A stretch of DNA of 64,000 nucleotides, taken from Nonlabens xylanidelens (GTDB lineage Bacteria; Bacteroidota; Bacteroidia; Flavobacteriales; Flavobacteriaceae). The position numbers and the translations under genes were made by a program. Position 1 is the first letter of the stretch. Each line of letters opens with the position of its first letter. The notes beneath the pieces were generated by a model. That model did not search any database. It was not told where the DNA came from and saw only the letters and a list, made by a program, of their open reading frames with translations. The DNA is taken from positions 129,392-193,391 of the forward strand of contig NZ_PTJE01000002.1 in the NCBI RefSeq assembly GCF_002934445.1, read 5' to 3'. Positions 45,721-63,206 of this stretch are shown here, piece by piece.

Positions 45721-45736
45721 CGCTTTCGCGAAAGCG
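45721..45736. repeat. Recurrent palindrome, intergenic copy
   Basis: Perfect core, 30 bp before the DUF2945 gene. Confidence 0.95.
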
Positions 45737-45766
45737 GAACCACAACTATCTTTAAAGAAAAAAGAC

Positions 45767-45979: not shown

Positions 45980-46020
45980 TCATTTTAAATGACTAAATTT
46001 AACCATATAATATACCCATT

Positions 46021-46329
46021 TTGGATCTATCTTTAATTACATCACAACAATTGCTAGCGTCTAGCGCACAAAGCCTTTTGGGCTTGCTATTTATAGCGAG
46101 TATTATTGTGGTCGCCTGGTTGTGGTTTTTAAAAAGTCAACGCTCAAATACCGACGCTCCTAAGAGCTCTGTTTCTATAAAAATAGATAGAAACGGAAAA
46201 TATAGATACGAAGCAGTACCTAATTCTGGTAATAGCAATCTTAAATTTTGGATTAAAATAATTATTGCAATTATGGCACTTGCTTTTTTATGGATTCCTA
46301 TAAAATCGTTTATCAATCCGCAGTATTAA
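46021..46329 (+). CDS. Small membrane protein (TTG start)
   Basis: The 102 aa have hydrophobic helices at about 15-36 and 78-97 separated by a polar segment (SVSIKIDRNGKYRYEA). No in-frame ATG precedes the first helix, so TTG at 46021 is used. It ends 3 bp before the next start and is probably co-transcribed. No family recognised. Confidence 0.6.
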   Translation: MDLSLITSQQLLASSAQSLLGLLFIASIIVVAWLWFLKSQRSNTDAPKSSVSIKIDRNGKYRYEAVPNSGNSNLKFWIKIIIAIMALAFLWIPIKSFINPQY

Positions 46330-46332
46330 ATT

Positions 46333-46950
46333 ATGGCACAGTTAATTAAAATTTACGAGGATAATCCTAATCAAAAAGAACTAGAACGCATAGTTAAAGC
46401 AATGCGCGCTGGTGCTCTAGTTATATATCCTACAGATACTGTCTATGGTCTAGGGTGTGATATTACTAATAAACCTGCCTTAGAAAAAATTGCTAGAATT
46501 AAAGGTGTGAAACTAGAAAAGGCTAACTTTTCTTTTATCTGTGAAGACTTAAGTAATCTAAGTGATTATGTAAGCCAGATAGACTCTCATACTTTTAAAA
46601 TATTAAAGCGCAACCTGCCAGGTCCTTATACCTTTATTTTACCAGGTAATAACAATTTACCGACTGTTTTTAAGAAAAAGAAAACGGTAGGAATACGTGT
46701 GCCGGATAATAATATTGCTATAGAATTAGTAAAACTATTAGGCAATCCTATTATCTCTACTTCTATTAAAGATGAAGATGAAGTGGTAGAATACACTACA
46801 GACCCTAGTCTTATTGCAGAGAAATGGGATAACCTAGTGGACTATGTTATAGATGGTGGTTATGGTGGTAATATAGGATCTACTATAGTAGATCTTACTG
46901 AAGATGAGCCAATAATCATACGTGAAGGAAAAGGATCTATAGATTTATAA
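46333..46950 (+). CDS. YrdC/Sua5/YciO-family protein (threonylcarbamoyladenylate synthase-like)
   Basis: The 205-aa protein carries the YrdC fold: GALVIYPTDTVYGLGCD (ATP/threonine site), LPGPYTFILPG, VGIRVPDN, and the SxxxxxxG-type segment GSTIVDLTED. The residues after the first motif (RIKGVKLEKANFSFICEDL) fit YciO more than canonical TsaC (KR-rich loop absent), so activity in t6A formation is uncertain. Confidence 0.85.
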   Translation: MAQLIKIYEDNPNQKELERIVKAMRAGALVIYPTDTVYGLGCDITNKPALEKIARIKGVKLEKANFSFICEDLSNLSDYVSQIDSHTFKILKRNLPGPYTFILPGNNNLPTVFKKKKTVGIRVPDNNIAIELVKLLGNPIISTSIKDEDEVVEYTTDPSLIAEKWDNLVDYVIDGGYGGNIGSTIVDLTEDEPIIIREGKGSIDL

Positions 46951-47025
46951 ACCTTTATTTCTAGATTTCATAAGACAGAGTTTTATACTAGTATTCTAAT
47001 TTTTGCGATTAGCATTATTACTTAT

Positions 47026-47436
47026 ATGTATGTTTTATCAGAAACTATACATTTAAGAGAGTCTACAATGGATATCAATATTCATGACACCTATTACCTT
47101 TTTTCTTCTATTGATTTCTTTACTCTTATTCTTATTTTCGGAATTATTTCAAGTTTGATAATTTTTATTTTAAGCTTGAAAAAATTTAAAGCTTTTTCAT
47201 TACTATTATTAATATTTACAGTTAGTTTTTCTTTATTTGTCTATTCTAGTTTATCAAATTTTGTATACTCAACAATTTATTTGCCTGATCTTCCAAAACG
47301 GTATTACATAAATACAGTTTTTCCAGAAGAAAATAACTTTAGGTTACTTATTATCATCTCTTTACTTATCTCTTTTCTTTCTTTATTGATTTTAATAGTT
47401 TGTAAACTCCTGAGAGTTAAAAAGAAGGTTAATTAA
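47026..47436 (+). CDS. HDTYY-motif membrane protein with doubtful start
   Basis: From the ATG at 47026 the 136-aa protein has helices at about 30-50, 58-78 and 105-128, after a DINIHDTYYLFS motif. In frame and upstream of the ATG, codons 46978-47025 read EFYTSILIFAISIITY, a good membrane helix, but the frame holds no ATG/GTG/TTG start before the preceding stop (46948-46950). Either a rare ATT start (46957) is used or the first helix has lost its start. Confidence 0.55.
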   Translation: MYVLSETIHLRESTMDINIHDTYYLFSSIDFFTLILIFGIISSLIIFILSLKKFKAFSLLLLIFTVSFSLFVYSSLSNFVYSTIYLPDLPKRYYINTVFPEENNFRLLIIISLLISFLSLLILIVCKLLRVKKKVN

Positions 47437-47538
47437 CTCCTGTTTACTTTACTCACAAAGCTTTCTTATTTCACACTTTCTTATTAGAATGGTATCTATT
47501 TAATCTCTAATTTTAGAAGAAATAAAAACACTATAATA

Positions 47539-48372
47539 ATGTCTTATTTAGAAAAAGAAACTGCACAACAAGATGCTAACGTAAGTATCTATTTTGAAGA
47601 TCACGGTAGCGGACAACCTATAATTTTAATACATGGATGGCCATTAAGTGGCGCACAATGGGAATATCAAGTACCTGTACTAGTAGATGCTGGTTATCGT
47701 GTAATTACTTATGACCGTAGAGGTTTTGGTCGTTCTTCTAGACCATATAATGGTTATGATTATAACACTATGGCTAGCGACCTACATGACTTAATTGAAC
47801 AATTAGATCTAGATAACGTTATTCTTGCTGGTTTTTCTATGGCAGGTGGTGAGCTGGCTCAATATGTAGATACTTATGGAACTAGTAAAATAGACAAGTT
47901 AATTTTTATAAGCTCCATCGCTCCTTACCTACTCAAAACAGATGACAACCCAAACGGTGCTCCTGACGAAGTATTTAAAGGAATGGAAGATAACGTGAGA
48001 AAGGATCGCACAGGATTCTTAAAAGGTTTTGGTAATGGGTTTGTGAACTATGACGATAATAAAGATCGCATTTCTCAAGGTCAGCTGGACTATAATTTTC
48101 AGATAGCAGCTAGTGCAAGTCCTAAAGGCTCGCTGGATTGCATCAACGCATTCGGTAGAACAGATCTTCGTCAGGCACTAGAAAAAATAGATGTCCCTAC
48201 CCTATTTATACATGGTGATGCCGATAATATTGTACCTATAGAACCTAGTTCTAAACAAGGACACGAGATAGTAAAAGACTCAAAATTAGAAATTATCAAA
48301 GGTGCTCCACATGGACTTTATGTTACTCATAAAGAAGAACTTAATCAACTGCTATTAGATTTTATCAAATAA
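47539..48372 (+). CDS. Alpha/beta hydrolase (non-haem chloroperoxidase-like)
   Basis: The 277-aa hydrolase has the oxyanion motif LIHGWPLSG, nucleophile S100 in AGFSMAGGE, acidic residue in HGDADNIVPIEP and His in GAPHGLYVTH. The YDRRGFGRSSRP strand is typical of the bromo-/chloroperoxidase-like esterases. Cytosolic; natural substrate unknown. Confidence 0.92.
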   Translation: MSYLEKETAQQDANVSIYFEDHGSGQPIILIHGWPLSGAQWEYQVPVLVDAGYRVITYDRRGFGRSSRPYNGYDYNTMASDLHDLIEQLDLDNVILAGFSMAGGELAQYVDTYGTSKIDKLIFISSIAPYLLKTDDNPNGAPDEVFKGMEDNVRKDRTGFLKGFGNGFVNYDDNKDRISQGQLDYNFQIAASASPKGSLDCINAFGRTDLRQALEKIDVPTLFIHGDADNIVPIEPSSKQGHEIVKDSKLEIIKGAPHGLYVTHKEELNQLLLDFIK

Positions 48373-48378
48373 CATTTT

Positions 48379-49341
48379 TTAAAAATCTAAAACTTCATAG
48401 CGCTCTAGAGATTTTTCTAGAGCGTTTATTTTTTGCTCTATTTTATTGAAAAAACGTGCACGCTCTTTAGAATTAGAATGTGATAAGGAAGTAGCCTGTT
48501 TCAACTGGTGTTTAAAATATCCTTCAATGCGGTGCAACATATTACTAGCCGTAAATCTTATGTAACCCAACATGGTCATAGTGACAAAGCCAGCCACAGG
48601 CTTGCCATGCTTATAAGCAATAGAATTATTGGTCATTATTAATAATTCATGATAGTGTATGTCATAACGATCTGTAAGCAGTTCTTTTTGCTTTAAAGCA
48701 ATTAGGTTTTTAATGTCTTTACACAATATTCTAGCGTCTTCTAGTCGTAACATTCCTGCGGTAAGAAAATAATCAATCTGCTTGAGACTGCTAGTTACTG
48801 TAGTATCATTCCATATTTCACACACCTCAAATCGTTCAATGAGTTGTGCTATTTCCTTCATCGCCGACTTCATTTCCATAGTCAGGTGAAAGTTCTCATA
48901 TTTAGTATCCATAAATGTAGGATCCATAAGTTGCAACCACACATAAATTTTAAACCTAGCCAGTTCACTATTATCAAAATGATGGTACACAGGAATATCC
49001 TTTGCACTGTACTCAAAACGCACTCCATCTTTTCCTAGTTGTCTTAGGTTTCTTACTGTTTCTACTAGATATTCTTCCATACTCTTAATAGAATTTACAT
49101 GAGTAGTAGCCTCGCCTAGTGCACTTAATTTTACATCTTGCACCATAATATTATCCAGTGAGAACTGCCCTGTTTTTGCCAGTTCCATAGCTTCATCTGC
49201 TGTTAATTTTGCCTTGCCTTGAATACGTCTATAGGCAGCATCATAACTTATATCTAAGACATTTGCTACTTGTTGTATAAAAGATGTTTGATCGGTTACG
49301 CTTTCGCGAAAGCGATTAATAATTAAGTCTTGTTTTTTCAT
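48379..49341 (-). CDS. HTH-type regulator with large ligand-like domain (BetR-like)
   Basis: Residues 10-70 form a helix-turn-helix like those called BetR or Cro-like: FIQQVANVLDISYDAAYRRI followed by LTADEAMELA. The rest (about 80-320) is helical without a recognised domain. A perfect recurrent palindrome (49299-49314) lies in frame at the N-terminus and encodes RFRESV. It faces the alpha/beta hydrolase gene, 6 bp apart at the 3' ends. Confidence 0.75.
   Translation of the reverse strand: MKKQDLIINRFRESVTDQTSFIQQVANVLDISYDAAYRRIQGKAKLTADEAMELAKTGQFSLDNIMVQDVKLSALGEATTHVNSIKSMEEYLVETVRNLRQLGKDGVRFEYSAKDIPVYHHFDNSELARFKIYVWLQLMDPTFMDTKYENFHLTMEMKSAMKEIAQLIERFEVCEIWNDTTVTSSLKQIDYFLTAGMLRLEDARILCKDIKNLIALKQKELLTDRYDIHYHELLIMTNNSIAYKHGKPVAGFVTMTMLGYIRFTASNMLHRIEGYFKHQLKQATSLSHSNSKERARFFNKIEQKINALEKSLERYEVLDF
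49299..49314. repeat. Recurrent palindrome inside HTH-regulator gene
   Basis: Perfect core, in the minus-strand reading frame as RFRESV near the N-terminus. Confidence 0.95.
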
Positions 49342-49442
49342 TTTGCGTTATTCACAAATTAAAAGTACGAAATACTTATTTAACGCAAATCTTGTTTTAA
49401 AAAACACAATAGATTTGGAATATAATAAAAAAACTACCTATT

Positions 49443-50042
49443 ATGAATATTCCTAAAGTGCTCATTCTATTCCGTTTATTACTTGCTCCCATTATTTTAG
49501 GACTTGCCTATTTTATAGGTGACGATTCTAAAACAACCATAATAGTGCTCATGTATCTAGGGTTGATCTCTGACATTCTAGATGGTATAGTAGCTAGAAA
49601 ACAAGGTGTCTCCAGTACTAGTTTAAGAAGAATGGATAGTCAGACAGATATGGTGTTTTGGCTTTCTATAGGATTTGCCACGTGGATACTCTATCCACAA
49701 CTTATTGCAAATAATTACGTTTCTATATATGTAATTCTTGTCATGGAGGTAGCATGTTATGTGATAAGTCTGGTTAAGTTTAAAAAGGAGACTTGTACGC
49801 ATGCATTTCTATCAAAATTGTGGGGTATTACTTTACTCGTTGCTTTTACATCGTTGATAGGTTTTAATCATTCAGGAATTCCCTTTGCACTAGCGATAGT
49901 CATGGGAATTATATCACATATAGATAGAATACTTATCACTATCATACTTCCTAAATGGACGCATGATATACCGAGTGCATACCATGCTTATTTGATAAGA
50001 AAGGGTATCGATTTTAAAAGAAATGATTTATTAAACGGCTAA
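49443..50042 (+). CDS. CDP-alcohol phosphatidyltransferase family protein
   Basis: This membrane protein of 199 aa has five or six hydrophobic helices. The CDP-alcohol motif is seen as DGIVARKQGVSSTSLRRMD followed by SQTD; all Asp metal ligands are present but the central Gly (position before the final x3-D-x3-D) is Leu. It would transfer a phosphatidyl or related group from a CDP donor. The next small gene follows after 15 bp. Confidence 0.85.
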   Translation: MNIPKVLILFRLLLAPIILGLAYFIGDDSKTTIIVLMYLGLISDILDGIVARKQGVSSTSLRRMDSQTDMVFWLSIGFATWILYPQLIANNYVSIYVILVMEVACYVISLVKFKKETCTHAFLSKLWGITLLVAFTSLIGFNHSGIPFALAIVMGIISHIDRILITIILPKWTHDIPSAYHAYLIRKGIDFKRNDLLNG

Positions 50043-50057
50043 CTAAAGACAATAATT

Positions 50058-50411
50058 ATGAAAAACCTAGTACAACAATATTATGCCATATTTGAAGAAA
50101 AGGTATCTACTACTACATTTACACAACTGTGGATTATGCTACAAAAAAATCTAGGCACAAGTTACTTAGACTTAAAGCTAGACGAATTGTGCAACACAAA
50201 GAGAAAACAATTACTCTCTTTAATGCCTAGCCACATAAAGGTAGGAAAAGAGTCGGTATTGAGTATTCAATTAACCAATTCTAAAATTGAAGAATTGAGA
50301 ATGGTTTTATTAACCTCTGGACTTTCTTTACTTAAATTAATTAGAATACCTGTTACTATGAAAGAGCAAGAACTCGCTATACCACCACAAATAATGAGAG
50401 ATCTATTCTAG
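50058..50411 (+). CDS. Hypothetical small cytosolic protein
   Basis: The 117 residues belong to no recognised family. Predicted alpha-helical, no membrane segment, no Cys pair apart from one Cys (LCNTKRKQ). Starts 15 bp after the phosphatidyltransferase gene, so probably its operon partner. Its 3' end overlaps the convergent lipoprotein gene by 9 bp. Confidence 0.6.
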   Translation: MKNLVQQYYAIFEEKVSTTTFTQLWIMLQKNLGTSYLDLKLDELCNTKRKQLLSLMPSHIKVGKESVLSIQLTNSKIEELRMVLLTSGLSLLKLIRIPVTMKEQELAIPPQIMRDLF

Positions 50412-51641
50412 AGTTTCTGCTTGCAGTTCTCCTAAGAACTCGTAGAATTCTTCTTTAAATCGTTCATGCTTCTGACCAGTTGCCAGTCCATTATAACCGG
50501 TGTGTATACGTCTCACTTTACCAAATTTATCTATATAAATACTGGTAGGGTATGATAATACATGGTTAAGCATTGGCAACTTTTCATTTGCTGTTTTCTT
50601 ATCTGTAGAACCATATTGAGCTAATAAAATAGGATACGTAACATTCTCTGCATCAATAAGTCTTTTTATAGATTGCAAAGCAGCTTTTTCGGTAGGTGCA
50701 TATTCAAATGCTAGACCTATAAATTTTACATTAGGGTTTTGAGAGTTGATATATTCTTGAAAAAATCTAGTCTCTTCTAGACAGTTAGGACACCAGCTAC
50801 CTAATAACTGCACTACAACAACCTGATCTTTAAATTCTGCATCTTGTAAGCTAACTTGCTTTCCATTTACATCTTTAAAACTAAAATCTACAGAATCATA
50901 CCCTTCTTTTAAATAAGTAAGCGTTGTAGCATCTGGTAGATTATAATCGTTATTAAGAATTGCAGTAAATGGTTCTTTCCAGTGATTACCACTATAAAAA
51001 TATCCTTCTAGAACACTGTCTTTTACAGCTGCTTCAAATAGAAAAGCATGAGCACCGTCAAAGGTGGATAACTTTAAAGTATCATTTACCACAGCACCTT
51101 CAAGAAATCTATAATCTCCGGTTGTAGTTTCAAAAGTACCTGTAACTTTATTTCCTTCTTGAGTAAAAACACCTTTTGCAATGTAACGATCTGATTCACT
51201 GTCTGGACTGAAAACAGTTTCATAGCTACCAGATAAAAAGGAAGATGTTGTAGCATCTTCAATCGACGCAAAACGATAATCTTTTCCTGCAGTCATTGTA
51301 AATGGTACTACTCTATCTAGACTAGGTTTAACGTGTTCTCCTGTTATTAACTCATTAGATTGAAATTCACCTTTAAAGTATCCTTCAAAAACTGGAGGTT
51401 TTATAAAAATAGAGTCTCCTTCTATGGTGATCTCTGTAACGATAATTTCTTCATTTGCATTAAACATCGTTAAGGTATGGTCTTCATTTACCTTTAATTG
51501 TACCGGTAATTCTTTGTCATTACCTAAATCAAAGGTTAGTCTCCAGTTGCCAGGAGATAATGATAAAGCTACGGCTTGGGTAGACTCTTCTTTACAAGAG
51601 GAAAGTAGTATAACGAGCGAAAGAAATAGTAATTTTTTCAT
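50403..51641 (-). CDS. TlpA-like thioredoxin-family lipoprotein
   Basis: The lipoprotein signal LFLSLVILLSSC gives Cys 16. Residues about 25-245 form a DUF4369-like beta-rich N-terminal region; the C-terminal 160 residues are a thioredoxin domain with GSWCPNCLEET (redox C-x2-C) and cis-Pro LSYPTSIYID. Typical of Bacteroidetes TlpA-type proteins acting in the periplasm in thiol exchange. 412 aa. Confidence 0.9.
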   Translation of the reverse strand: MKKLLFLSLVILLSSCKEESTQAVALSLSPGNWRLTFDLGNDKELPVQLKVNEDHTLTMFNANEEIIVTEITIEGDSIFIKPPVFEGYFKGEFQSNELITGEHVKPSLDRVVPFTMTAGKDYRFASIEDATTSSFLSGSYETVFSPDSESDRYIAKGVFTQEGNKVTGTFETTTGDYRFLEGAVVNDTLKLSTFDGAHAFLFEAAVKDSVLEGYFYSGNHWKEPFTAILNNDYNLPDATTLTYLKEGYDSVDFSFKDVNGKQVSLQDAEFKDQVVVVQLLGSWCPNCLEETRFFQEYINSQNPNVKFIGLAFEYAPTEKAALQSIKRLIDAENVTYPILLAQYGSTDKKTANEKLPMLNHVLSYPTSIYIDKFGKVRRIHTGYNGLATGQKHERFKEEFYEFLGELQAETLE

Positions 51642-51736
51642 ACTGCAAGTTTATTGCATAATTATCACGTAATTATTACGATTCAATTTATTAATATTTA
51701 TTTAGTAAATCGGCTATATTTTAAGAACTTCGCCAC

Positions 51737-52312
51737 ATGGAGCATCGACACTTTTTAATCTACAAACCTTATAAAATGCTTAGTCAGTTCATGACTAACG
51801 ACAGGCATCAAAAAAACAAGAAGTTTTTAGGAGAGCTATTTGATTTCCCGACAGATAGCATGGCTGTAGGCAGACTAGATGAAACTAGTGAAGGCCTATT
51901 AATGATTACTACAGACGGCAAATTAAGCAGTCATATTAATAAACACGGTAAGGTAGAGAAAGAATACTATGCACAAGTAGATGGAGTGATTACAAAAGAG
52001 GCAATTGAAAAAATAACCTCTGGACTAGAGATAAGTATAAATGGCTCTATTTACTTAACCAAAGAATGTCAGGCAAAAATAGTAGAACAAACCCCTGATT
52101 TACCAGCAACGTTACAACGTGTACGAGACGATCGCCACGGTCCTACTTCTTGGGTTTCTGTGACTTTAAAAGAAGGAAAATTTAGACAGGTACGTAAGAT
52201 GTGCGCTGCAGTAGGATTTCCTGTATTGCGACTTGCTCGTGTACGCATAGGAGCATTTACCTTAGAAAATCTTAATAAAAAAACTGTTGTGGAAATTACC
52301 GACCTATTATAG
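51737..52312 (+). CDS. RsuA/RluE-family pseudouridine synthase
   Basis: A protein of 191 aa without an S4 domain. The catalytic motif is VGRLDETSEGLLMITTDG; the C-terminal WVSVTLKEGKFRQVRKMCAA matches the family. The compact size resembles E. coli RluE (23S rRNA U2457), but the target is inferred. Ends 17 bp inside the convergent gene at 52296. Confidence 0.9.
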   Translation: MEHRHFLIYKPYKMLSQFMTNDRHQKNKKFLGELFDFPTDSMAVGRLDETSEGLLMITTDGKLSSHINKHGKVEKEYYAQVDGVITKEAIEKITSGLEISINGSIYLTKECQAKIVEQTPDLPATLQRVRDDRHGPTSWVSVTLKEGKFRQVRKMCAAVGFPVLRLARVRIGAFTLENLNKKTVVEITDLL

Positions 52313-53102
52313 TTTTCCTAACGAGAGGATCTACTTCTTTCCATGGATTTGTAATTGATCTCCATTCAGAAGCAGTGTTTTTTAATCCATTCATAGCCAT
52401 TGCAGTGGATTTTATTTCATAACTCAAATTGGGATCAAATCGCATATTACCACCACATTCCCAATAACCTATTTCAAAATTGCCTTGATAGGGCTTCAAA
52501 TAAGTCCTAAACATTTCTCCTTTTGAATTTCTTATAGTAACCTCATACCAGACCTTATAACTCAAGAGAAAATAATTAGGCTCGAAGCCCACCAAAAGTG
52601 TAAAACCTACTGAAGATGATTGCTTTAATTCCTTTGCACCTACTATCTCTTTGTAATCTAAGTGTAAATCTTTGTGTACACTATAATCCTTTACAGAGTC
52701 TACAATAAAAAATTTACCTTTCCATCTTTTTTTTTCAAACCATTCATCAGGTAAGTCAGCAAATTTTTCATCATTATATTTAAACTGAGAATAAAAAAAA
52801 TACTTAGTTCCCATTTTTAATGGACAGTCAGGCTTTAATAGTATTTGAGCATGTAAATTTATTCTTGTAGAATCAAAAATAAGTAGGTCGATTATTTCAC
52901 CTTGTTCAGATCTTAAGGAGTAATCAAAATTATTAATAGAAAATAGGCTCTTCTCAGTTTCCATTCCATTTTGTAGCATAAATAGTTGATCTACATCAAT
53001 ATTATGATTTTCAGGAAATAACTGCGTAGTACTTATTCCGCACTCCATTCCTAAAGATAAAAATGGAATAAAAAATAAAATTACTACTAAAGCCTTACTC
53101 AT
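52296..53102 (-). CDS. Hypothetical secreted protein
   Basis: The 268 aa begin with a signal peptide (LVVILFFIPFLSLG). The mature part has beta-rich stretches (WYEVTIRNSKGEMFRTYLK) but no known domain. Overlaps the preceding gene (53095-53706) by 8 bp, so the two are translationally coupled and probably work together. Confidence 0.65.
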   Translation of the reverse strand: MSKALVVILFFIPFLSLGMECGISTTQLFPENHNIDVDQLFMLQNGMETEKSLFSINNFDYSLRSEQGEIIDLLIFDSTRINLHAQILLKPDCPLKMGTKYFFYSQFKYNDEKFADLPDEWFEKKRWKGKFFIVDSVKDYSVHKDLHLDYKEIVGAKELKQSSSVGFTLLVGFEPNYFLLSYKVWYEVTIRNSKGEMFRTYLKPYQGNFEIGYWECGGNMRFDPNLSYEIKSTAMAMNGLKNTASEWRSITNPWKEVDPLVRKTIIGR

Positions 53103-53890: not shown

Positions 53891-55201
53891 TTAATCTAAT
53901 CGCTTGATTTTGGCACCTATTGCACGCAGTCTGCTATCTATGTTTTGATAACCACGATCGATTTGTTCAATGTTGTGGATGGTACTTGTCCCTTTTGCAC
54001 TTAAAGCGGCGATAAGTAAAGAAATACCAGCTCTAATATCTGGGCTAGTCATAGTGGTAGCCTTTAATTGAGATTCAAAATCATAACCTATTACACTTGC
54101 TCTATGTGGATCGCAAAGAATAATTTTTGCTCCCATATCGATAAGCTTATCCACAAAGAATAAACGGCTTTCAAACATTTTCTGGTGTATTAATACACTA
54201 CCTCTAGCCTGTGTTGCTACAACTAGAACGATACTCAATAAATCTGGAGTAAAACCTGGCCATGGAGCGTCAGAAATGGTAAGAATAGAACCATCGATGT
54301 AATTCTGGATTTCATAACCATCATTGTGTGCAGGAATAAAAATATCATCTCCACGACGTTCTATAGTAATCCCTAGTTTTCTGAAAGTTGCTGGAATGAT
54401 ACCCAACTCGTCATAAGCTACATTTTTAATGGTAACCTCTGACTTAGTCATCGCAGCAAGACCTATCCAGCTACCTATTTCAATCATATCAGGTAGAATG
54501 CGGTGTGTTGTACCACCTAATTTTTCCACTCCTTCTATAATCAGCATATTAGAACCTATACCAGAGATATTTGCACCCATGCGCACTAGCATGTTACATA
54601 GTTGCTGTAAATAAGGCTCACATGCAGCGTTGTAAATAGTTGTTTTTCCTTTGGCAAGAACTGCTGCCATAACAATATTTGCTGTACCTGTAACTGATGC
54701 CTCATCTAGTAGCATATACGCTCCATGAAGCTCGTCTGCCTCTACACCATAGAAATATTCTTCTTTGTTGTATCTGAATTTTGCTCCTAGTTTAATGAAA
54801 CCTTCAAAGTGTGTGTCTAGACGACGACGTCCTATTTTATCACCACCTGGACGTGGAATATATCCTTTTCCAAAACGTGCTAATAATGGACCTACTAACA
54901 TGATAGAACCACGTAGTCCACGACCTTGTATTTTATACTCTTCAGACTGTAACCAGTCTAGATTTATATTATCTGCTTGAAAAGTGTAAGATTCCGGACC
55001 ATTTTTAGTCACTTTTACACCTAGGTTATTCAATAAAGCAATCAGTTTATTAACGTCGATAATGTTCGGAACATTATTAATCTCTACTGGCTGGTCTGTT
55101 AGTAAAACGGCACAAAGTATTTGAAGTGCTTCATTTTTAGCTCCTTGTGGTTGTATATCACCTTTTAATTGATGTCCACCTTCTATTATAAATGTTCCCA
55201 T
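53891..55201 (-). CDS. murA: UDP-N-acetylglucosamine 1-carboxyvinyltransferase, Asp-type (fosfomycin-insensitive predicted)
   Basis: The first committed peptidoglycan enzyme transfers enolpyruvate from PEP to UDP-GlcNAc. The 436-aa protein has the EPSP-synthase fold, with GAKNEALQ at 20-27 and the active-site loop PRPGGDKIGRRRLDTH (116-131). D121 replaces the Cys (C115 in E. coli) that fosfomycin alkylates. Its leader contains one copy of a 59-bp direct repeat. Monocistronic on the minus strand. Confidence 0.96.
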   Translation of the reverse strand: MGTFIIEGGHQLKGDIQPQGAKNEALQILCAVLLTDQPVEINNVPNIIDVNKLIALLNNLGVKVTKNGPESYTFQADNINLDWLQSEEYKIQGRGLRGSIMLVGPLLARFGKGYIPRPGGDKIGRRRLDTHFEGFIKLGAKFRYNKEEYFYGVEADELHGAYMLLDEASVTGTANIVMAAVLAKGKTTIYNAACEPYLQQLCNMLVRMGANISGIGSNMLIIEGVEKLGGTTHRILPDMIEIGSWIGLAAMTKSEVTIKNVAYDELGIIPATFRKLGITIERRGDDIFIPAHNDGYEIQNYIDGSILTISDAPWPGFTPDLLSIVLVVATQARGSVLIHQKMFESRLFFVDKLIDMGAKIILCDPHRASVIGYDFESQLKATTMTSPDIRAGISLLIAALSAKGTSTIHNIEQIDRGYQNIDSRLRAIGAKIKRLD

Positions 55202-55230
55202 GTATTTCTTTAATTGTAATTTTTAAAAAT

Positions 55231-55289
55231 AACGAACTCGCCGAAGTTTTTAAAACATTATGAAGGTTATAATTCATAATTAATGAACA
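55231..55289. repeat. 59-bp direct repeat, copy 1 (murA leader)
   Basis: Starts AACGAACTCGCCGAAG and ends ATTAATGAACA; identical base for base to 59927-59985. Lies 30 bp upstream of the murA start, so it probably includes murA promoter sequence. Confidence 0.95.
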
Positions 55290-55333
55290 AGATTTTTAAG
55301 TACTTAATAGAAGTAGAAATCAAGTTCAAATAA

Positions 55334-55375
55334 CAAAAAAAGCTTCAAATAATTATTACTAATTATTTGAAGCTT
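55334..55375 (-). terminator. Terminator of porin operon
   Basis: Perfect 15-bp arms AAGCTTCAAATAATT / AATTATTTGAAGCTT, 6-nt loop; on the minus strand a T-run follows. Confidence 0.9.
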
Positions 55376-55398
55376 ACTAACTAAGTAGTTTTTATTAA

Positions 55399-56571
55399 CT
55401 ATAAATTAAATTGCAGCCCTAATCTTATCTGTTGATTCCAGTCCAAAGGATCTAAACTCTCCTGATCGTTTAGGTTATTGAAGTATTGCAATTTTACCAT
55501 CGCGTCAAATCCATCGATTTGATATGCTATGGCAGCAGACATTCTTTTTGAATCACCGGCATTAAGATCATTAAGATCTAATTGTTCATAACGAACAGAA
55601 ACAATGGTATTATAATCCTTTACAAAATAATTAAGTTGTGAGAAGTATCCACCTGCAAGGACTCTACCCTCTGTTTGTGCAGGAGTAAGTCCTAAAAATA
55701 AAGGATCGTTCTCATTTTGTGGTTGTGCATTAATTTGATGAATTTCAAACTGCCCAGAAAAGCCTTTATATTGAAAAGTAAAATCCATACCATAAGTATA
55801 TTTTTTACCATCCACAATCTTTAATCCATATTCACCAGCTGCGCCGTCAGGAAAAGCCTCACCATCTGGTAAATTTTTATTAGTATAACGTCCATTGAGA
55901 CCTAATGAAAAAAGCGGTATCGATGAGTGTACATAATCGATTTCACGATTTTTCATAGGTGCTGGATAAGATACATCTACCCTAGCTACAAATTCTGGAT
56001 TACCACTAGCATCATTATCACCTGAAAGGGAAGATTCACCTAGACCTGTATAAACACCAGCAAAAGCGTTTACACGTTTTTGCCAGAAATCTTTATAAAG
56101 TGTAACTCCTACATCTCTACGACTAAAGAAATCACCACGAACAATCTGTGCTCGTTGCCAGTACGTTGAATAAGGAAATGGAGTTATAGAACTTCTAGAA
56201 TAAGGTAATTTACTGTAACCTAATTTAATATTGAACGCTTCTAATCCTTTGTAAGTAACAAAAGCATCCATCAGACCTGGGTTTTCAGCATCAATCTCAC
56301 CAGTGTTATTAGAACCTATGTCTGCAAAATCTACTTGCACTTCATATTCCCAATCGTCTCTGATACGACCTTCAATAATAAGTTGTGCATCTCTTAATCT
56401 AAACCTGTTCTTATCGCGCTCTTCTTCACCAGGTTTTAAAAAACGCTGGTTGTAATAAGTAGATATTCTTGAAGAAATCTCTATGTTATGTTCACCATTA
56501 GAAATTGATATTTGTGCTTGTCCAAGACTTCCAATCAATAGAATGAAAAGTAAGTAAATTGTTTTTTTCAT
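55399..56571 (-). CDS. OprO/OprP-like porin (phosphate-selective porin family)
   Basis: The signal peptide ends near LGQAQ. The 390-aa barrel fits the O/P porin family: FRLRDAQLIIEGRIRDDWEYEVQVDF, KLGYSKLPYSRSS, TYWQRAQIVRGDFFSRRDVG, and a C-terminal strand ending QIRLGLQFNL. It probably passes phosphate or polyphosphate, though family members vary in selectivity. It is the last gene of a three-gene operon (2 bp gap) bracketed by 59-bp repeats. Confidence 0.88.
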   Translation of the reverse strand: MKKTIYLLFILLIGSLGQAQISISNGEHNIEISSRISTYYNQRFLKPGEEERDKNRFRLRDAQLIIEGRIRDDWEYEVQVDFADIGSNNTGEIDAENPGLMDAFVTYKGLEAFNIKLGYSKLPYSRSSITPFPYSTYWQRAQIVRGDFFSRRDVGVTLYKDFWQKRVNAFAGVYTGLGESSLSGDNDASGNPEFVARVDVSYPAPMKNREIDYVHSSIPLFSLGLNGRYTNKNLPDGEAFPDGAAGEYGLKIVDGKKYTYGMDFTFQYKGFSGQFEIHQINAQPQNENDPLFLGLTPAQTEGRVLAGGYFSQLNYFVKDYNTIVSVRYEQLDLNDLNAGDSKRMSAAIAYQIDGFDAMVKLQYFNNLNDQESLDPLDWNQQIRLGLQFNL

Positions 56572-56573
56572 CT

Positions 56574-57302
56574 CTAATTATTTTCTGGATTGCTGAAATA
56601 GTATAAACGTTGTAATGCGTCAGACGCTACAATGAAATTTCCTTTTGCGTCAAAGGCAAGACCTTCTGCATTTAAAACAGGAATTTTCCATTTAGAAATA
56701 ACACTGTAATCATTTGGATTTAGTTTAAAAACAGTACTGTCCTCATCACTCAATAACCACAAATGGTTATCGTAATAAGTCGCTGAAGAAATATCTCTAG
56801 CGATGTCGCCTAGATTAATTTCATTTACTTTTTCCAACTTCTCATTCAGTTCAAAAACATAAATCGGATCCTTTTCTACTACTAATGTAAAAACGCCTTT
56901 GGCTTTGTTATAAGTAAACCCTTCATAAGCCTTGTTTCTAGCACCATTATAAGGCACATTCACTGTTTTTTCCAATACTAAATCTGGCAGTCTGAACATT
57001 TTTATTTTACGTGAGAATTCCTCAACAACATAAACATGAGATTCATTTACATAAACAGCCTCATCATCAAGACCTTTATAATCTGCCTTACGTAAAATGG
57101 TTCCTTCTAGATCTGTTTCAAACAAATAACCATTATCACTTACCATAAAGAGGCTTTTACCATCTACACTAAAGGCTATGTCTGATGGTTCAGGAACCTG
57201 AATGCATTTTTTCTGAGTAGGCTTTAATTTTATGATCTCTTGAGCATGAACGCTAGAGAAACACAATCCTATTCCTAAGATGGCAATTATTGTTTTTTTC
57301 AT
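56574..57302 (-). CDS. SdiA-regulated-type beta-propeller protein (phytase-like fold)
   Basis: The 242 aa carry the signal peptide TIIAILGIGLCFSSVHAQ. The body shows propeller repeats (PSDIAFSVDGKSLFMVSD, GLDDEAVYVNESHVYVVEE, AYEGFTYN, AEGLAFDAKGNFIVASD). The SdiA-regulated family resembles 3-phytases and strictosidine-synthase propellers. Between lipoprotein and porin genes (29 and 2 bp gaps); phosphoester hydrolysis is an inference. Confidence 0.78.
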   Translation of the reverse strand: MKKTIIAILGIGLCFSSVHAQEIIKLKPTQKKCIQVPEPSDIAFSVDGKSLFMVSDNGYLFETDLEGTILRKADYKGLDDEAVYVNESHVYVVEEFSRKIKMFRLPDLVLEKTVNVPYNGARNKAYEGFTYNKAKGVFTLVVEKDPIYVFELNEKLEKVNEINLGDIARDISSATYYDNHLWLLSDEDSTVFKLNPNDYSVISKWKIPVLNAEGLAFDAKGNFIVASDALQRLYYFSNPENN

Positions 57303-57331
57303 AAGTTTATAATTGGGTAGTCTAATAAAAT

Positions 57332-59005
57332 CTATAAGCTGTCTCCTTCTAGGCTTAAATTGTCAAAACGACTATTTCCGCTAGTTGCCGCTGCACTAAT
57401 TGCATCAAAGGTTATTCGTACCTTAAAATTTGCATTGTTATTCACATCAGTTATAGAACTTAAATCAAATTCACGCAGTTCATAATCTTCTATAACTGTG
57501 TACGTAGTAGGACTAATACCAGTATCTATATAATTGGTTCCATCTACAGTGTAAGCTATATCAAAGGTCTGAGAACCACTTCCAGAACGTGTCACTGCAA
57601 ATTTGAGAGAGAGATTTTTATATCCTGTAGATGGAAGATTCATGATAAAATCACCTGATGGATTTCTTAATCGCAATGCTCTACCATCAGCATCCATATT
57701 TCTTGCGTTGATATCGCTACCACCTACGTCATCAAAAGAAGCGCCATTGTATTCTAACACTCCATTACCTACATTAGGTGTGATTAATGTCACTAAGTCA
57801 GTATCATCATTAAAATTCCAATATTGAAACAACTCAAATTGTGAATTAGATGCCTGTGGCGTACTGTTATCCACTTCTCCTTCTACACTTAAATTATCAA
57901 AACGGCTATTACCGCTAGTTGCAGTACTACTAGTTTGATCAAAAGTAAGTTTTACCTTAAAATTAGGATTATTATCAACTCCAGCGATACCAGTAAAGTC
58001 AAATTCTCTTAATTCATAAGATTCTATAATAAGAAAATTAGAAAGAGAAAGACCAGCATCTGTATATGTTGTACCATCTGTAGTGTAAGAAATATTAAAA
58101 TCTTGTGAGCCACTACCAGAACGCGTTATAGCAAATTTAACTTCAATATTTTTACGACCTGTAGTAGGTATATTCATTATAAAATCAGCAGACGGATTAC
58201 GCAATCTCAATCCTTTTCCTGCATCAGCCAGATTTCTCGCGTTTAAATCGCTACCGTTTACATCATCAAAAGTAGCACCAAAATAAGATAAACTTCCATC
58301 GCCCACATTAGGCGTTATAAGTGTAATTAAATCCGTATCATCATTAAAATCCCAATAGTGAAACAATTCACTTTGTCCAGCAGCGTCAACTGTAGGAACA
58401 GCATCTAGAGTAAAATTATCAAAGCGAGAATTACCGGTAGATCCATCTGCATTGATGTTAAATTCAATTCTTATTTTAAAATTAGGATTATTATCAGCCT
58501 CTGGAATGTTTGTAAAATCAAACTGGCGTAAAACATAAGTCTCCGTAACCCCATAGCTGGTGTTTTCTAATCCAGCCTGAGTAAAAGTTGTACCGTCCGT
58601 AGTATAAAAAAACGTTTGTTGTTGAGCACCACTACCAGAACGTTTTGCAGCATAAGTAACTATTGCATCTTCATAACCGTTCGTAGGAAGATCTACTGTA
58701 AAGTTGCCAGAAGGGTTTCTTAACCTCAAAGCATCTCCTTCAATATCATTATTCCTTGCGTTCAGTAAAATAGAATCATCTACGTCATCAAATCGATCTC
58801 CTTCATAAGTCATTAACGCTCCTCCTGTAGTTTGAGTAGGTGCAATCAATGTCTCAAGACTTGATATATCATTAAAATTCCAATAATGAACCAACTCAAA
58901 AGTAGGATCTTCAGGAGCTGTTATACTATCAATTTCAAAATCCCTATCTGTCGTGCATGCAAACAGAATTGAAACAAAAGCAATTAGAGCAAGGTATTTA
59001 TTCAT
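57332..59005 (-). CDS. Surface lipoprotein with three tandem domains
   Basis: The lipobox LFAC gives Cys 17. Three repeats of about 170 residues follow (about 36-212, 213-390, 391-557). Each starts with (F/L)-HYWNFND-like sequence, contains ARN...LRLRNPSG(D/N)F, RSGSG, Y(T)TDGT, and ends GNSRFDNL. Units 2 and 3 are the most alike. The fold is likely a jelly-roll. It may bind substrate at the cell surface for the downstream propeller and porin. Confidence 0.75.
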   Translation of the reverse strand: MNKYLALIAFVSILFACTTDRDFEIDSITAPEDPTFELVHYWNFNDISSLETLIAPTQTTGGALMTYEGDRFDDVDDSILLNARNNDIEGDALRLRNPSGNFTVDLPTNGYEDAIVTYAAKRSGSGAQQQTFFYTTDGTTFTQAGLENTSYGVTETYVLRQFDFTNIPEADNNPNFKIRIEFNINADGSTGNSRFDNFTLDAVPTVDAAGQSELFHYWDFNDDTDLITLITPNVGDGSLSYFGATFDDVNGSDLNARNLADAGKGLRLRNPSADFIMNIPTTGRKNIEVKFAITRSGSGSQDFNISYTTDGTTYTDAGLSLSNFLIIESYELREFDFTGIAGVDNNPNFKVKLTFDQTSSTATSGNSRFDNLSVEGEVDNSTPQASNSQFELFQYWNFNDDTDLVTLITPNVGNGVLEYNGASFDDVGGSDINARNMDADGRALRLRNPSGDFIMNLPSTGYKNLSLKFAVTRSGSGSQTFDIAYTVDGTNYIDTGISPTTYTVIEDYELREFDLSSITDVNNNANFKVRITFDAISAAATSGNSRFDNLSLEGDSL

Positions 59006-59021
59006 TATAATAAATTTTGCG

Positions 59022-59029
59022 CAAAACTA
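59022..59029 (-). promoter_or_regulatory. -7 promoter box of the porin operon
   Basis: On the minus strand TAGTTTTG fits TAnnTTTG, 16 bp upstream of the lipoprotein ATG. Confidence 0.5.
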
Positions 59030-59063
59030 CTCTGGTATTGATGACCTAATGTTATCTCTACAT

Positions 59064-59081
59064 TAACTTATGGTTAACTTG
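59064..59081 (-). promoter_or_regulatory. PhoB-box-like direct repeat
   Basis: On the minus strand AAGTTAA-CCAT-AAGTTAA: two identical 7-bp units with an 11-bp period, 34 bp upstream of the -7 box. The geometry matches sites of OmpR/PhoB-type activators; the sequence is not the enterobacterial consensus. Confidence 0.4.
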
Positions 59082-59110
59082 TAAATGATTTATAAATATG
59101 ATAAAAAGTT

Positions 59111-59126
59111 CGCTTTCGCGAAAGAG
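59111..59126. repeat. Recurrent palindrome, intergenic copy (1 mismatch)
   Basis: CGCTTTCGCGAAAGAG, inside the 59-bp-repeat-bracketed segment. Confidence 0.9.
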
Positions 59127-59218
59127 GAATAGTATTATCTATCCTAATTTATATTTTCATTCAATCAATTATCTAAAATAGTGCTGTAAAAAATAGTCTT
59201 TTTAAAGATGGTAATTGA

Positions 59219-59623
59219 TTAGCCTTTTTTGTCTTTTAAGTATTTCAGAAGATCTACAAAATGTTGCTCAGAGTGAATTTGCATTAAATTACAGAAAACC
59301 CATATAGCGTTCTTTTGAGTAGTATTTTCAAAACACCATTTTACTTCTAGTAGATCTTTAATTATATCTGTTAAGTCGTTAATGGCATCTCCTGTTACTA
59401 AAGAAGTATCTGGCAGGATTTTATGTGATTCTTGAACAGAATGATACCAATCAAAATCAGGGAGATTTGCCTCAACATTTTTCTTTATGATATCATAATC
59501 AAAAGATGGTTCTCCGTCAAATTCTGCTTCTAAATTCAAATATTCAGAATAAAGTCTCACCAAGAGTTGCTGGATTTCAAATTCTTTGTTGTTCGATTGA
59601 ATTTTGTCATTAAGACCGAACAA
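59219..59623 (-). CDS. DUF5063-like hypothetical protein
   Basis: The 134-aa acidic, helical protein without signal peptide has LLVRLYSEYL near the start. The C-terminal half (TGDAINDLTDIIKDLLEV, then IHSEQHFVDLLKYL) resembles the DUF5063 pattern from memory. Its function is unknown. It is the most upstream gene within the 59-bp-repeat-bracketed segment, 213 bp from the lipoprotein gene. Confidence 0.6.
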   Translation of the reverse strand: MFGLNDKIQSNNKEFEIQQLLVRLYSEYLNLEAEFDGEPSFDYDIIKKNVEANLPDFDWYHSVQESHKILPDTSLVTGDAINDLTDIIKDLLEVKWCFENTTQKNAIWVFCNLMQIHSEQHFVDLLKYLKDKKG

Positions 59624-59926
59624 TGTAATTCTATTGATTATTTCTTTTAAAGTATGCTGAGTTCAACCCATAAGTGCAACGCATTTATTATTTATTTTAA
59701 TCTTGATACTAAAAAAGATTTTCCTACGGCAAGATAAATAATTATGATATCGATTATAGAAGTGTATTTGTGAGAAATTAGGTAGATTTCATTTGTTTTT
59801 ACTGCTATTATTTACTGAGTTTAATTATTTTAACTGTATATCCGTTAAATATCATAACCCTGTAATGTTAGCAATAACTACTCTTTCAAAGAGTCTGTCT
59901 TCAAAATATCTTCGATTGATCTTGTA

Positions 59927-59985
59927 AACGAACTCGCCGAAGTTTTTAAAACATTATGAAGGTTATAATTCATAATTAATGAACA
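59927..59985. repeat. 59-bp direct repeat, copy 2
   Basis: Identical to 55231-55289 in the same orientation; the flanking bases differ immediately on both sides. About 4.7 kb separates the copies. Confidence 0.95.
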
Positions 59986-60056
59986 TGCTAGATTCTTACC
60001 TTAATATCTATTTTAAAAGCGGTTTATATCTCTTAAAATAGTATAGAATTATATTT

Positions 60057-60086: not shown

Positions 60087-62171
60087 GTGAAAACCATTAC
60101 CTTATCCATTGCCTTTTTACTTACAGCTTTATTCTCAATAGCTCAAGTAGAAACGGGAATCGCACCCAACTGGCTAGAAAAAGTAACTTACAGCCCTACT
60201 CCAGATGTTAATTATGATGATTTAAATCAAGGAACCTTAACCTTAATTTACGATCATCAAGTAAACATACCTAAACAAGAGTCCTACACAAAATATGCTA
60301 CTAAAATATTTGAAAATGTAGGCGTACAACAAGCATCTACCATAAATGTAAGTTATGACCCTAAGTATCAAACCTTAAAATTCCATTCTATAAAAGTCCT
60401 TAGAGATGGAGAAGTTATCGATAAATTAAAGCCAGATAATTTTCAATTAATGCGCCGTGAATCTGATGCAGAAAATTATATGTACGACGGTACAATGTCT
60501 GCCGTTATGAATATTTCTGACGTTAGGTCAGATGATATAGTGGAATACAGTTATACTATTAAAGGTTTTAACCCTATTCATAAAAACAAATTTTCTGACT
60601 CTTATTACCTCAATAGTTATGAACCTATAGGTAAAATGTCTATCACATTACTATCAGAAAATGAGTTACATATTAAAGGTATCAACAACCCTAGTGAGCC
60701 ACAAATCACTACTGTTAATGGTTTAAAAAAATACCACTGGAATAATGAGAACACAAAAACAGTTACTTATGAAGATTACAGTCCTAACTGGAAAATAGAT
60801 TACCAACTAGTAATTGTTAGTGATTATGATTCATGGAAAGACGTGGTAAAATGGGGAATCGATACTTTTACCTTAAAAGAAAAACCAAATAAAGAATTAT
60901 TAAAAACAATTAATAACATCAAACAAGAAAATTCTACTGATGGAGAGAAAATAGCTGCTACTTTAAATTTTGTTCAAGATGATATCAGGTATCTAGGTCT
61001 TGAAGACGGTATAGGAGCCTATAAACCTTTTATGCCTAATCAGGTCATTGAGCAGCGCTTTGGTGACTGTAAAGATAAAAGTTTACTCATGTCTTCTATG
61101 CTCAATGAAATGGGAATAGAAGCCTACCCTATGTTAGTTAGTAGTTTTTTAAAGCAATCTATCACAGAGTTTCTTCCATCACCTATTTTCTTTGATCACT
61201 GTGTAGTAAAAGTTATTGATGCTGCAGGAACAGATTTATATTATGACCCTACCATAAGCAATCAAGGTGGTGTTTATGATAAAACACATTTCCCAGATTA
61301 CCAGTATGGACTGGTTATTAAACCAGAAAACACAGACTTAGATCAAATTACGAGTCATTCTAAGAACACAGTAGAGGTTTATGATGTCTATGAACTAGAA
61401 GAAACTGGCAAAGGAGCTACTTTAAAAATTAAAACTGTCTTCTATGACTATGAGGCAGATGCTATGCGAGGATACTTTAAAAACAATAGTATCAATACGA
61501 TAACCAAAGAATATAAAAACTATTATTCTAACTATTATTACAATATTGAGTCTACTAAAAAACCAGAGTTTAAAGACGATTTAGAGCTCAATAAATTTGA
61601 AGTAACCGAAGAATACAAGATCGATAGTCTATGGAGACCTATGCCAGAAAAAGATGGCTACATCATGGCACATTTTACACCTTCTAGCATAGAAGGTATT
61701 TTATATACTCCTAATAAGGAAGAGCGCAATGATCCTTTAGATTTATATTACCCATCAACTAAGCAACATAAAATCAAAGTGATATTAGGCTCTAGATGGG
61801 ATGTGAATAACGAGCAAGAAGAATTTAACTGTACTGCTTTTGACTATAAATGGGATGTAAAATATAACAAGCGTAAAAACGAAATAGACCTTACCTACTT
61901 ATTGAAGTACAAAAAAGACCATATCAACCCATCTGAATTTAAGGAATATTCAAAACAAGTAAATAAAGTAAATGAAACCCTAGGTTACCAGATATACATC
62001 CCTTCTAGCATGGCTGTAGGAAATAGTTTCATTAATAAAGCTAGTAAATCTTCTAATACAGTAGAGACTTTTATGATCATGCTTTTAGTTCTATTTGTAA
62101 TCATTGTTATCATCTTATTAATAGTCTGGTACAGTCAGCGTAATAAGAAACATATCGACCCTTTTTATTAA
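60087..62171 (+). CDS. DUF3857/transglutaminase-like membrane-anchored protein
   Basis: A GTG start yields a signal peptide ending near LFSIAQ. Residues about 50-220 form the DUF3857 beta domain (VLRDGEVIDKLKP, DDIVEYSYTIKGFNP), about 280-400 the transglutaminase-like core with Cys in RFGDCKDKSLL and His in FFDHCVV; a C-terminal helix (about 662-684) anchors it. 694 aa, normal for the family. Periplasmic; peptidase or crosslinking activity unproven. Confidence 0.88.
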   Translation: MKTITLSIAFLLTALFSIAQVETGIAPNWLEKVTYSPTPDVNYDDLNQGTLTLIYDHQVNIPKQESYTKYATKIFENVGVQQASTINVSYDPKYQTLKFHSIKVLRDGEVIDKLKPDNFQLMRRESDAENYMYDGTMSAVMNISDVRSDDIVEYSYTIKGFNPIHKNKFSDSYYLNSYEPIGKMSITLLSENELHIKGINNPSEPQITTVNGLKKYHWNNENTKTVTYEDYSPNWKIDYQLVIVSDYDSWKDVVKWGIDTFTLKEKPNKELLKTINNIKQENSTDGEKIAATLNFVQDDIRYLGLEDGIGAYKPFMPNQVIEQRFGDCKDKSLLMSSMLNEMGIEAYPMLVSSFLKQSITEFLPSPIFFDHCVVKVIDAAGTDLYYDPTISNQGGVYDKTHFPDYQYGLVIKPENTDLDQITSHSKNTVEVYDVYELEETGKGATLKIKTVFYDYEADAMRGYFKNNSINTITKEYKNYYSNYYYNIESTKKPEFKDDLELNKFEVTEEYKIDSLWRPMPEKDGYIMAHFTPSSIEGILYTPNKEERNDPLDLYYPSTKQHKIKVILGSRWDVNNEQEEFNCTAFDYKWDVKYNKRKNEIDLTYLLKYKKDHINPSEFKEYSKQVNKVNETLGYQIYIPSSMAVGNSFINKASKSSNTVETFMIMLLVLFVIIVIILLIVWYSQRNKKHIDPFY

Positions 62172-62248
62172 TATTAACCCTTTACATTTTTCGACTATTC
62201 ATTCTGTATAAATAATAAATAGAAAAATATCTGATTAAGTACAAACTT

Positions 62249-62289
62249 AAAAAGGCTGAAAACTATACCGTATAGTTTTCAGCCTTTTT
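62249..62289. terminator. Bidirectional terminator
   Basis: Perfect 19-bp arms (62249-62267 and 62271-62289) around a CCG loop, with A and T tracts; between convergent genes. Confidence 0.92.
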
Positions 62290-62327
62290 ATATATCAACT
62301 ATTTAAAGTTCGTAGTAATTAAATTCC

Positions 62328-63146
62328 TTAATACTGCTCCTCATCATTAGGAAAATCTACAGCCTTAACATCCTTAACGTAATTAGCAACAGCATTACCC
62401 ATCTCTTCATAAAGATTTAAATAGCGTCGTAAAAAACGTGGGTTAAACTCATGTGTCATACCGAACATGTCGTGAGATACAAGAACCTGTCCATCTACAC
62501 CAGCGCCTGCCCCTATACCTATTACAGGAATAGTAAGCTGCTCTGCAACCTTTTGTGCAAGTGCAGCAGGTACTTTTTCTAGTACTAGAGCAAAACAACC
62601 CCATCTTTCTAACGCTAGCGCGTCTTGTACTAGTTTTTCAGCCTCTTCAGCTTCTTTAGCTCTTACCGTATACGTACCAAATTTATAAATAGATTGTGGC
62701 GTTAGACCTAGATGTCCCATAACCGGTATACCAGCATGTAGAATACGTTTAATAGATTCTTTTACCTCGCTACCACCTTCTAACTTCACACTATGGCCAC
62801 CACTCTCTTTCATAATACGTATCGCACTACGTAAAGCCTCTTTTGGGTCACTTTGATAACTACCGAATGGTAAATCTACCACAACCAGTGCACGCTCCAC
62901 AGCTCTCACCACACTACTCGCATGATAAATCATCTGGTCCAGCGTTATAGGTAACGTAGTCTCATGTCCAGCCATTACATTACTCGCACTATCACCTACC
63001 AGAATAACATCTATACCAGCACTATCGATAATCTTTGCCATGGTATAGTCATAAGCCGTTAACATCGAGATCTTCTCGTTGTTTGCTTTCATTTCAGTAA
63101 GTGATTTTACAGTCACTCTTTTATATTGCTTCTTTGCAGTAGACAT
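62328..63146 (-). CDS. panB: 3-methyl-2-oxobutanoate hydroxymethyltransferase
   Basis: PanB makes ketopantoate from ketoisovalerate and methylene-THF in pantothenate/CoA synthesis. Motifs: [33 protein letters not shown] (metal and substrate), [26 protein letters not shown] and VIGIGAG. Starting at 63146 ([11 protein letters not shown]) gives 272 aa, the usual length; the longer ORF would extend into the leader of the divergent gene. No panC/panD nearby. Confidence 0.96.
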
Positions 63147-63206
63147 AAAACTTGTTTTAAGTGTAGCAAAAGTACTAATATTACAGCTCAATTAAATTGT
63201 AAGATT

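Follow-up and report, generated by a model that had tools for sequence, protein, structure and literature searches.

How a 4.6-kb segment came to stand between two identical 59-bp sequences beside the essential cell-wall gene murA is the question raised by this locus of Nonlabens xylanidelens. The window, meaning the whole stretch of 64,000 nucleotides that was analysed, lies on contig C2 (512,302 bp) of a genome of 3.28 Mb and 99.96% completeness (G000), and the segment holds an operon for a porin, a beta-propeller and a lipoprotein. An earlier note on the window had described the segment as a nutrient-acquisition cassette in AT-rich intergenic DNA with ends resembling attL/attR. On the comparisons presented here, the structure looks like a recombination scar beside murA rather than a mobile element with attachment sites. 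The repeat copies and murA are located as follows.

55231 to 55289, minus strand (the direction of murA): 59-bp repeat, left copy, the putative upstream control region of murA (sequence comparison)
59927 to 59985, minus strand: 59-bp repeat, right copy, without the adjoining TTATTTTTA block (sequence comparison)
53891 to 55201, minus strand: murA, 436 amino acids, EPSP_synthase fold family (PF00275, E=1.3e-63); the product name murA is presumed from family knowledge

The perfect direct repeats reported in the earlier note were present at both positions. The two copies are 100% identical across 59 bp and in direct orientation, with a start-to-start distance of 4,696 bp, and their flanks differ from the first base outward on either side. 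A chance origin of the pair was ruled out because about 1e-24 exact 59-mer pairs are expected in 64 kb (hand calculation, with a match probability of about 0.28 per site at this base composition). In a search of the whole G000 genome the repeat was found at these two sites only, which rules out the common dispersed repeat considered in the earlier note; when matches up to E 1 were admitted, the remaining 11 were fragments of 15-22 bp.

The description of the repeat as anonymous intergenic DNA had to be corrected, as the 59 bp is part of the murA upstream region, where it spans about -30 to -88 relative to the murA start. murA was matched in 23/23 genus genomes (G000 included). In G014 the gene is in two fragments on two contigs, and the other 22 murA-upstream regions were compared. 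Two blocks, TGTTnATTAnnnnTGAATA and TTATTTTTA, were kept in most of these 22 regions. The 59 bp extends from the first block to just within the second, and the second is missing beside the right copy.

55224 to 55232, minus strand: TTATTTTTA block just upstream of murA, possibly a -7-like element, with a 2-base overlap with the repeat; kept in most of the 22 genomes
55271 to 55289, minus strand: TGTTnATTAnnnnTGAATA block at the distal edge of the repeat, its last base deviating in G000; kept in most of the 22 genomes

The position of the 59 bp was assessed by ungapped alignment in ten relatives, the best score elsewhere being taken from about 10 kb of each. The sequence was found at the same offset upstream of murA (29 bases from the start) in six of the ten, with scores of 57/59 in G017, 45/59 in G010 and G011, 40/59 in G004, 38/59 in G005 and a weak 34/59 in G022, compared with at most 29-32 elsewhere in the same six relatives. 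Outside the genus, the conserved blocks were not seen upstream of murA in the 80 murA-upstream stretches examined; the first block (block 1), with up to 2 mismatches, occurred in 1/80 of these (that one being Nonlabens) and in 0/80 random stretches, and TATTTTTA occurred in 1/80 and 5/80, respectively. Conservation and position together suggest that the 59 bp is a murA control region with a promoter function. On its distal side the repeat ends where the conserved block does, at the point beyond which the flanks of any two alleles cease to match.

The genes found at the far side of the segment in G000, and next to murA in some relatives, are the following.

60087 to 62171, plus strand: DUF3857/transglutaminase-like membrane protein gene (PF12969, E=1.1e-35); adjoins murA in G022
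62328 to 63191, minus strand: panB-like gene, ketopantoate hydroxymethyltransferase (PF02548, E=1.2e-114); adjoins murA in G010, G011 and G018

The earlier note had proposed the murA-DUF3857 junction in relatives as a check on whether the segment is an insertion, and the comparison bears this claim out. In G017, with a murA DNA identity of 93.9% to G000, a single 59-bp copy is present beside murA, the operon is absent, and the DUF3857 gene was not found at E 1e-20. The G017 junction consists of the left flank of the left copy, the 59 bp, and a flank matching the right flank of the right copy (81 bp matching G000 at 88.9%; 15/22 beyond the repeat), and its content beyond these 22 nt differs from G000. 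The DUF3857 gene of G022 (50% amino acid identity) adjoins murA in divergent orientation; the panB-like gene follows, and the insert is absent. Because of the single copy without the operon in G017 and the adjacency of the two genes in G022, the operon is an addition in G000.

Gene order upstream of murA was surveyed in the 22 genomes with an unfragmented murA. One order is shared by 11 genomes, murA is adjoined by the panB-like gene in three (G010, G011, G018), and one has the DUF3857 gene followed by the panB-like gene. G000 has its own order, and the six others (G004, G005, G007, G012, G017, G019) mostly differ from one another too. G004 and G005 have one small open reading frame (ORF) in common upstream of murA, the panB-like gene lies about 9 kb farther along in G005, and an ORF of G017 falls into one cluster with a gene of the panB-like neighbourhood. 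Upstream of murA, then, gene content varies within part of the genus; such variation at the same core gene among relatives is a feature of hotspots.

Loss of the segment by recombination between the repeats may be possible, and G017 has the structure that such a loss would give. The operon might thus be an old insertion, present between two 59-bp copies in the ancestor of G000 and G017 and lost from the latter; the observation that the left outer flank, and not the right, is of a type also present in the more distant G011 and G022 is in keeping with this. We consider this history unlikely. Both G000 copies have C at site 3, where G017, G004, G005, G010 and G011 have A and G022 has C, and both have G at site 32, where G017, G004, G010, G011 and G022 have T and G005 has A. 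As both copies have in common two bases that differ from G017, the duplication appears to be young or homogenised: the copies would have arisen after the changes at sites 3 and 32, or have been homogenised later. The earlier claim of a recent duplication or recombination therefore holds with that addition. For an old insertion, homogenisation after the split would be required, the origin of the second copy is unexplained, and a search of G017 for operon traces yielded only short matches to repeats.

The operon itself comprises three genes on the strand of murA.

55399 to 56571, minus strand: outer-membrane porin, Porin_O_P, 390 amino acids (PF07396, E=7.7e-13; relatives in G013, 89%, and G376, 34%)
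56574 to 57302, minus strand: SdiA-regulated/phytase-like beta-propeller, 242 amino acids (PF06977, E=2.8e-18; PF13449, E=4.2e-7)
57332 to 59005, minus strand: putative surface lipoprotein, 557 amino acids, three tandem domains of about 175 amino acids (lipoprotein call by eye; relative in 1 other of the 23 genus genomes)
55337 to 55373, minus strand: terminator-like palindrome after the operon (homology to G013 begins at 55336)

The operon is rare. The porin was found in 2/23 genus genomes and the lipoprotein likewise, the other genome in each case being G013. Among 397 Flavobacteriaceae genomes, a sample that evidently does not include G013, the lipoprotein was found in one (G000 itself, E 1e-30) and the porin in two (G000 and G376, E 1e-25). 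The operon copy of G013 has 83% DNA identity to G000, from 55336, at the palindrome, to 59080, upstream of the lipoprotein gene, and no 59-bp copy is present on its contig of 3,979 bp. The four G013 stretches matching positions 44200-53100 of the window are at 68-75% DNA identity to G000, and murA is at 81.3%; the higher value of the operon suggests, without proving, that it was acquired horizontally. It was also considered whether the G013 contig might be the operon in free, circular form; this is not supported, as its ends showed no overlap (11-200 bases tried).

The lipoprotein gave no Pfam or NCBIfam family above its cut-off and was not found in the plasmid collection at E 1e-5; the predicted structure of one of its domains had a mean predicted local distance difference test score of 59.7, too poor for a fold search. 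The nutrient acquisition proposed in the earlier note is plausible only, from the Porin_O_P and SdiA-regulated/phytase-like families, which would fit a role in phosphorus or organic-ester uptake. In G376, which belongs to another genus, the gene immediately upstream of the porin gene likewise encodes an SdiA-regulated propeller, and the run also includes a gene for a secreted protein. The secreted proteins are of different kinds, a lamin-tail protein gene being last in G376 whereas the lipoprotein gene is first in G000. Unlike in G000, the G376 pair (L183) is adjoined by a divergent inorganic pyrophosphatase gene, which hints at phosphorus uptake.

The right 0.85 kb or so of the segment (59080-59926, G+C 28.0%) is not in the operon as G013 carries it.

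59219 to 59623, minus strand: DUF5063-like ORF, apparently shortened at the N-terminus (61% amino acid identity to G022, contig C9; DNA homology to G022 stops at 59650)
59646 to 59694, no strand assigned: solo 3' end of a transposase gene (HTH_38 and rve) with the adjoining insertion sequence (IS) end (92% to G013, contig C196, which has the whole transposase ORF)
59730 to 59800, no strand assigned: dispersed repeat in degenerate form (IS110-family transposase gene end, attC-like), which elsewhere overlaps IS110-family transposase gene ends

The DUF5063-like ORF matched PF16702 at profile positions 63-162 of 167 with 21.3 bits, under the 27-bit cut-off. The start region of its G022 homologue is missing, and the ORF abuts the solo transposase-gene end, a remnant that we take to be IS30-type. 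The 4.6 kb is consequently not a single cassette, as had been claimed, since its right 0.85 kb consists of a shortened ORF and IS debris; neither can the DUF5063-like gene be counted as a cassette part, being absent from the G013 operon and apparently shortened beside that debris.

Elsewhere in G000, small-ORF arrays that include a ParD-ParE pair were observed at contig C3, 187000-194000 (L171) and contig C2, 402500-416500 (L172). Their ORFs are separated by repeats of about 100 bp, 84-96% alike and ending in TTTGTTR, and this repeat also extends over the ends of IS110-family transposase ORFs. Both look like cassette arrays with attC-like repeats and IS110/IS1111-type insertions. Folding of two single repeats (three folds) gave z values of -1.2 to -1.3. 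For an integron integrase, G000 gave 12 TIGR02249 matches, none above the cut-off; all 14 control genomes also gave matches, again none above it, and the result is hence uninformative.

The patchwork of remnants in the right part of the insert would also fit a plain duplication, in which break repair or template switching placed a copy of the 59 bp at the far end of a non-homologous insertion, with no second allele taking part. Such an event would explain the young identical copies and the absence of a recombinase. It would make an accident of the agreement between the repeat edge and the conserved-block edge, and it leaves unexplained the match of the left flank to G011 and G022 described below; we regard it as distinctly unlikely.

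55290 to 55315, no strand assigned: flank of the left copy, resembling the murA-upstream flank of G011 and, with gaps, of G022 (30-nt gapped comparison)
59986 to 60007, no strand assigned: flank of the right copy, resembling the flank beside murA in G017 (15/22, ungapped; random 30-mer comparison)

The left flank reads AGAT...TTAAGTACT. The 30 nt beyond each copy was compared with flanks in relatives, with random AT-rich 30-mers of the window as the reference, in 12 pairings. For left-G011, 0/400 random 30-mers scored as high with gaps and 5/800 without; for left-G022 the values were 2/400 and 474/800. For right-G017 the gapped value was 2/400, and 0/800 random 30-mers reached 15 within the first 22, ungapped. 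The remaining pairings were unremarkable in the gapped comparison (left-G017 76/400, left-G010 22/400, right-G011 286/400, right-G022 102/400). Because the outer flank of each copy matches the murA flank of a different relative, there is a hint, though no proof, that this locus was formed by joining two alleles of the stretch upstream of murA.

These observations are best accommodated if the operon was inserted at murA by homology anchored in the murA control region, with no dedicated recombinase in the act, a reading to which we assign a probability of roughly 0.5. The porin-propeller-lipoprotein operon would have entered beside murA with the conserved upstream region as the homology anchor, and an illegitimate or single-crossover join would have formed at the other side of the insert. 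The incoming DNA, or a second allele, would have had an older murA-upstream flank next to the operon (the left flank, G011/G022-like), and the resident chromosome the flank that is now beside murA in G017 (the right flank). After the two were joined, murA would still have its whole control region, and the insert would carry a further, truncated copy at its far end; selection would presumably keep the murA control region whole. An identical product would arise if a circle with the 59 bp integrated by a single crossover, an event indistinguishable from this reading.

A number of observations weigh against insertion anchored in the control region. In four of the ten relatives (G018, G012, G019, G007) the 59 bp scored 25-30 at the murA offset and 29-30 elsewhere, and thus did not exceed the level elsewhere or did so by 1. 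The flanks are short (22-30 nt) for the number of pairings tried, the left-G022 likeness stands out only when gaps are allowed, and the likenesses were weaker in a shuffle test (left-G011 3/300, left-G022 9/300, right-G017 14/300), in which the unrelated pair G017-G004 reached 6/300. The left and right flanks are themselves somewhat alike (shuffle 9/300; random 17/400) and may be diverged forms of one flank. The left copy is without G011-type bases, so that the crossover with a G011-like donor would have had to fall in the final few bases of the repeat, and at site 3 G022 has the same base as G000. The 83% identity of the operon to G013 scarcely exceeds that of murA, the best-kept core gene, and no donor that carries the operon beside murA was found. 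In addition, known homology-facilitated illegitimate recombination usually deletes resident DNA (PMC3240628).

The attL and attR sites of genomic islands and integrative elements are direct repeats at both ends of an insert that keep the host gene sequence whole. The G000 insert likewise has direct repeats at both ends with an intact host gene sequence, and G017 has a single-copy empty site. On this view the 59 bp might be an att site, and the segment what is left of an integrative element that has lost its recombinase or was served by one in trans; the varying gene content upstream of murA among relatives and a short inverted repeat within the 59 bp are compatible with this. Unlike such sites, the repeat is the host murA control region and is absent from the G013 operon contig. 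The 59 bp gave no match in phage and plasmid collections at E 0.01, and the hairpin of its inverted repeat scarcely beats shuffles (z -1.1 and -1.4). No recombinase family was detected among the four proteins of the insert, where the 49-bp transposase-gene remnant is the sole trace, or in 10 ORFs upstream of murA in three relatives (six in G005, two each in G004 and G017; not all ORFs there were scanned), of which five had no family at all and one was a GIY-YIG protein. No second murA-upstream copy was found in stretches of about 10-13.6 kb from seven relatives, although distant, diverged or short copies could escape such a search. The same repeat was not seen bracketing other inserts in these stretches, which gave no sign of an att hotspot with repeated ends. 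Site-specific integration is very unlikely on this evidence, and the att reading of the repeat, put forward in the earlier note, is not supported.

In G012 (L150), a pair of 57-nt sequences, 89% alike and 213 bp apart (9582-9638 and 9795-9851), lies 150-420 bp upstream of murA, outside the control region, and is unrelated to the 59-bp repeat; a 14-bp tandem array likewise lies 150-500 bp upstream of murA in this genome.

The repeat could also have been misresolved in assembly, the true genome then having murA, the 59 bp and the right flank in line, with the operon on a separate circle. The alternative joining would yield the G017 junction. However, reads of at least 100 bp would span the 59 bp, contig C2 is continuous through the locus over its 512 kb, and both copies would be real even so; an assembly effect is barely credible.

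Other features were recorded around these loci. A perfect 21-bp inverted repeat with a 1-nt loop lies at 62248-62290, where the DUF3857 and panB-like genes converge, and is probably a shared terminator. Apart from the 59-bp pair, the direct-repeat families of at least 35 nt in the window were the lipoprotein domains and stretches around a dispersed palindrome, CGCTTTCGCGAAAGCG. The palindrome or its core was found near 17913, 24715, 26291, 32062, 40993, 45721, 49278, 53820 and 63217, and in the loci of relatives. Upstream of murA, EcsC-like, GIY-YIG/DUF4357 and short-chain dehydrogenase proteins are encoded in G005 (L138), a PLD-like protein in G004 (L137) and an aldo/keto reductase in G017 (L103).

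Hotspots of horizontal transfer that lack integrases and are bordered by core genes are common (Oliveira et al. 2017, PMC5635113). The murA locus is like these in having accessory genes beside a core gene, with content varying in relatives and no recombinase seen. It differs from those hotspots, which were scored statistically within species, whereas here one junction with a duplicated core-gene control region is concerned. Homology-facilitated illegitimate recombination has been described in competent bacteria; its products generally have deletions of about 1 kb and mostly 3-10 bp of microhomology (PMC3240628, PMC5361080). The G000 locus may share with this process a homology at one end only, with foreign DNA joined illegitimately at the other; it is dissimilar in that 59 bp is duplicated and there is no known resident deletion. 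Beyond the junction, G017 and G022 differ from G000 and from each other. The locus fits loosely as a product of this process, without being a proven member. A literature search found nothing on a murA locus with this operon, which is not proof that none has been published.

It might be speculated, as a rather doubtful generalisation, that recombinase-free gene capture in this genus makes repeated use of the conserved murA control region as its homology anchor: foreign genes would be joined on at the edge of the region, only events that spare it would survive, and a duplicated copy would permit later loss. If this is true, the murA locus gains and drops operons via the anchor and the duplicated copy. 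In our judgement, junctions that still reveal how genes entered are rarely at hand, and the G000 junction keeps the scar, with a duplicated piece of a core-gene control region and outer flanks that differ from each other. Should strains that have the operon and strains that lack it be found, they would provide a testable case of recombinase-free gene entry beside an essential gene, and of whether such repeats go on to promote loss.

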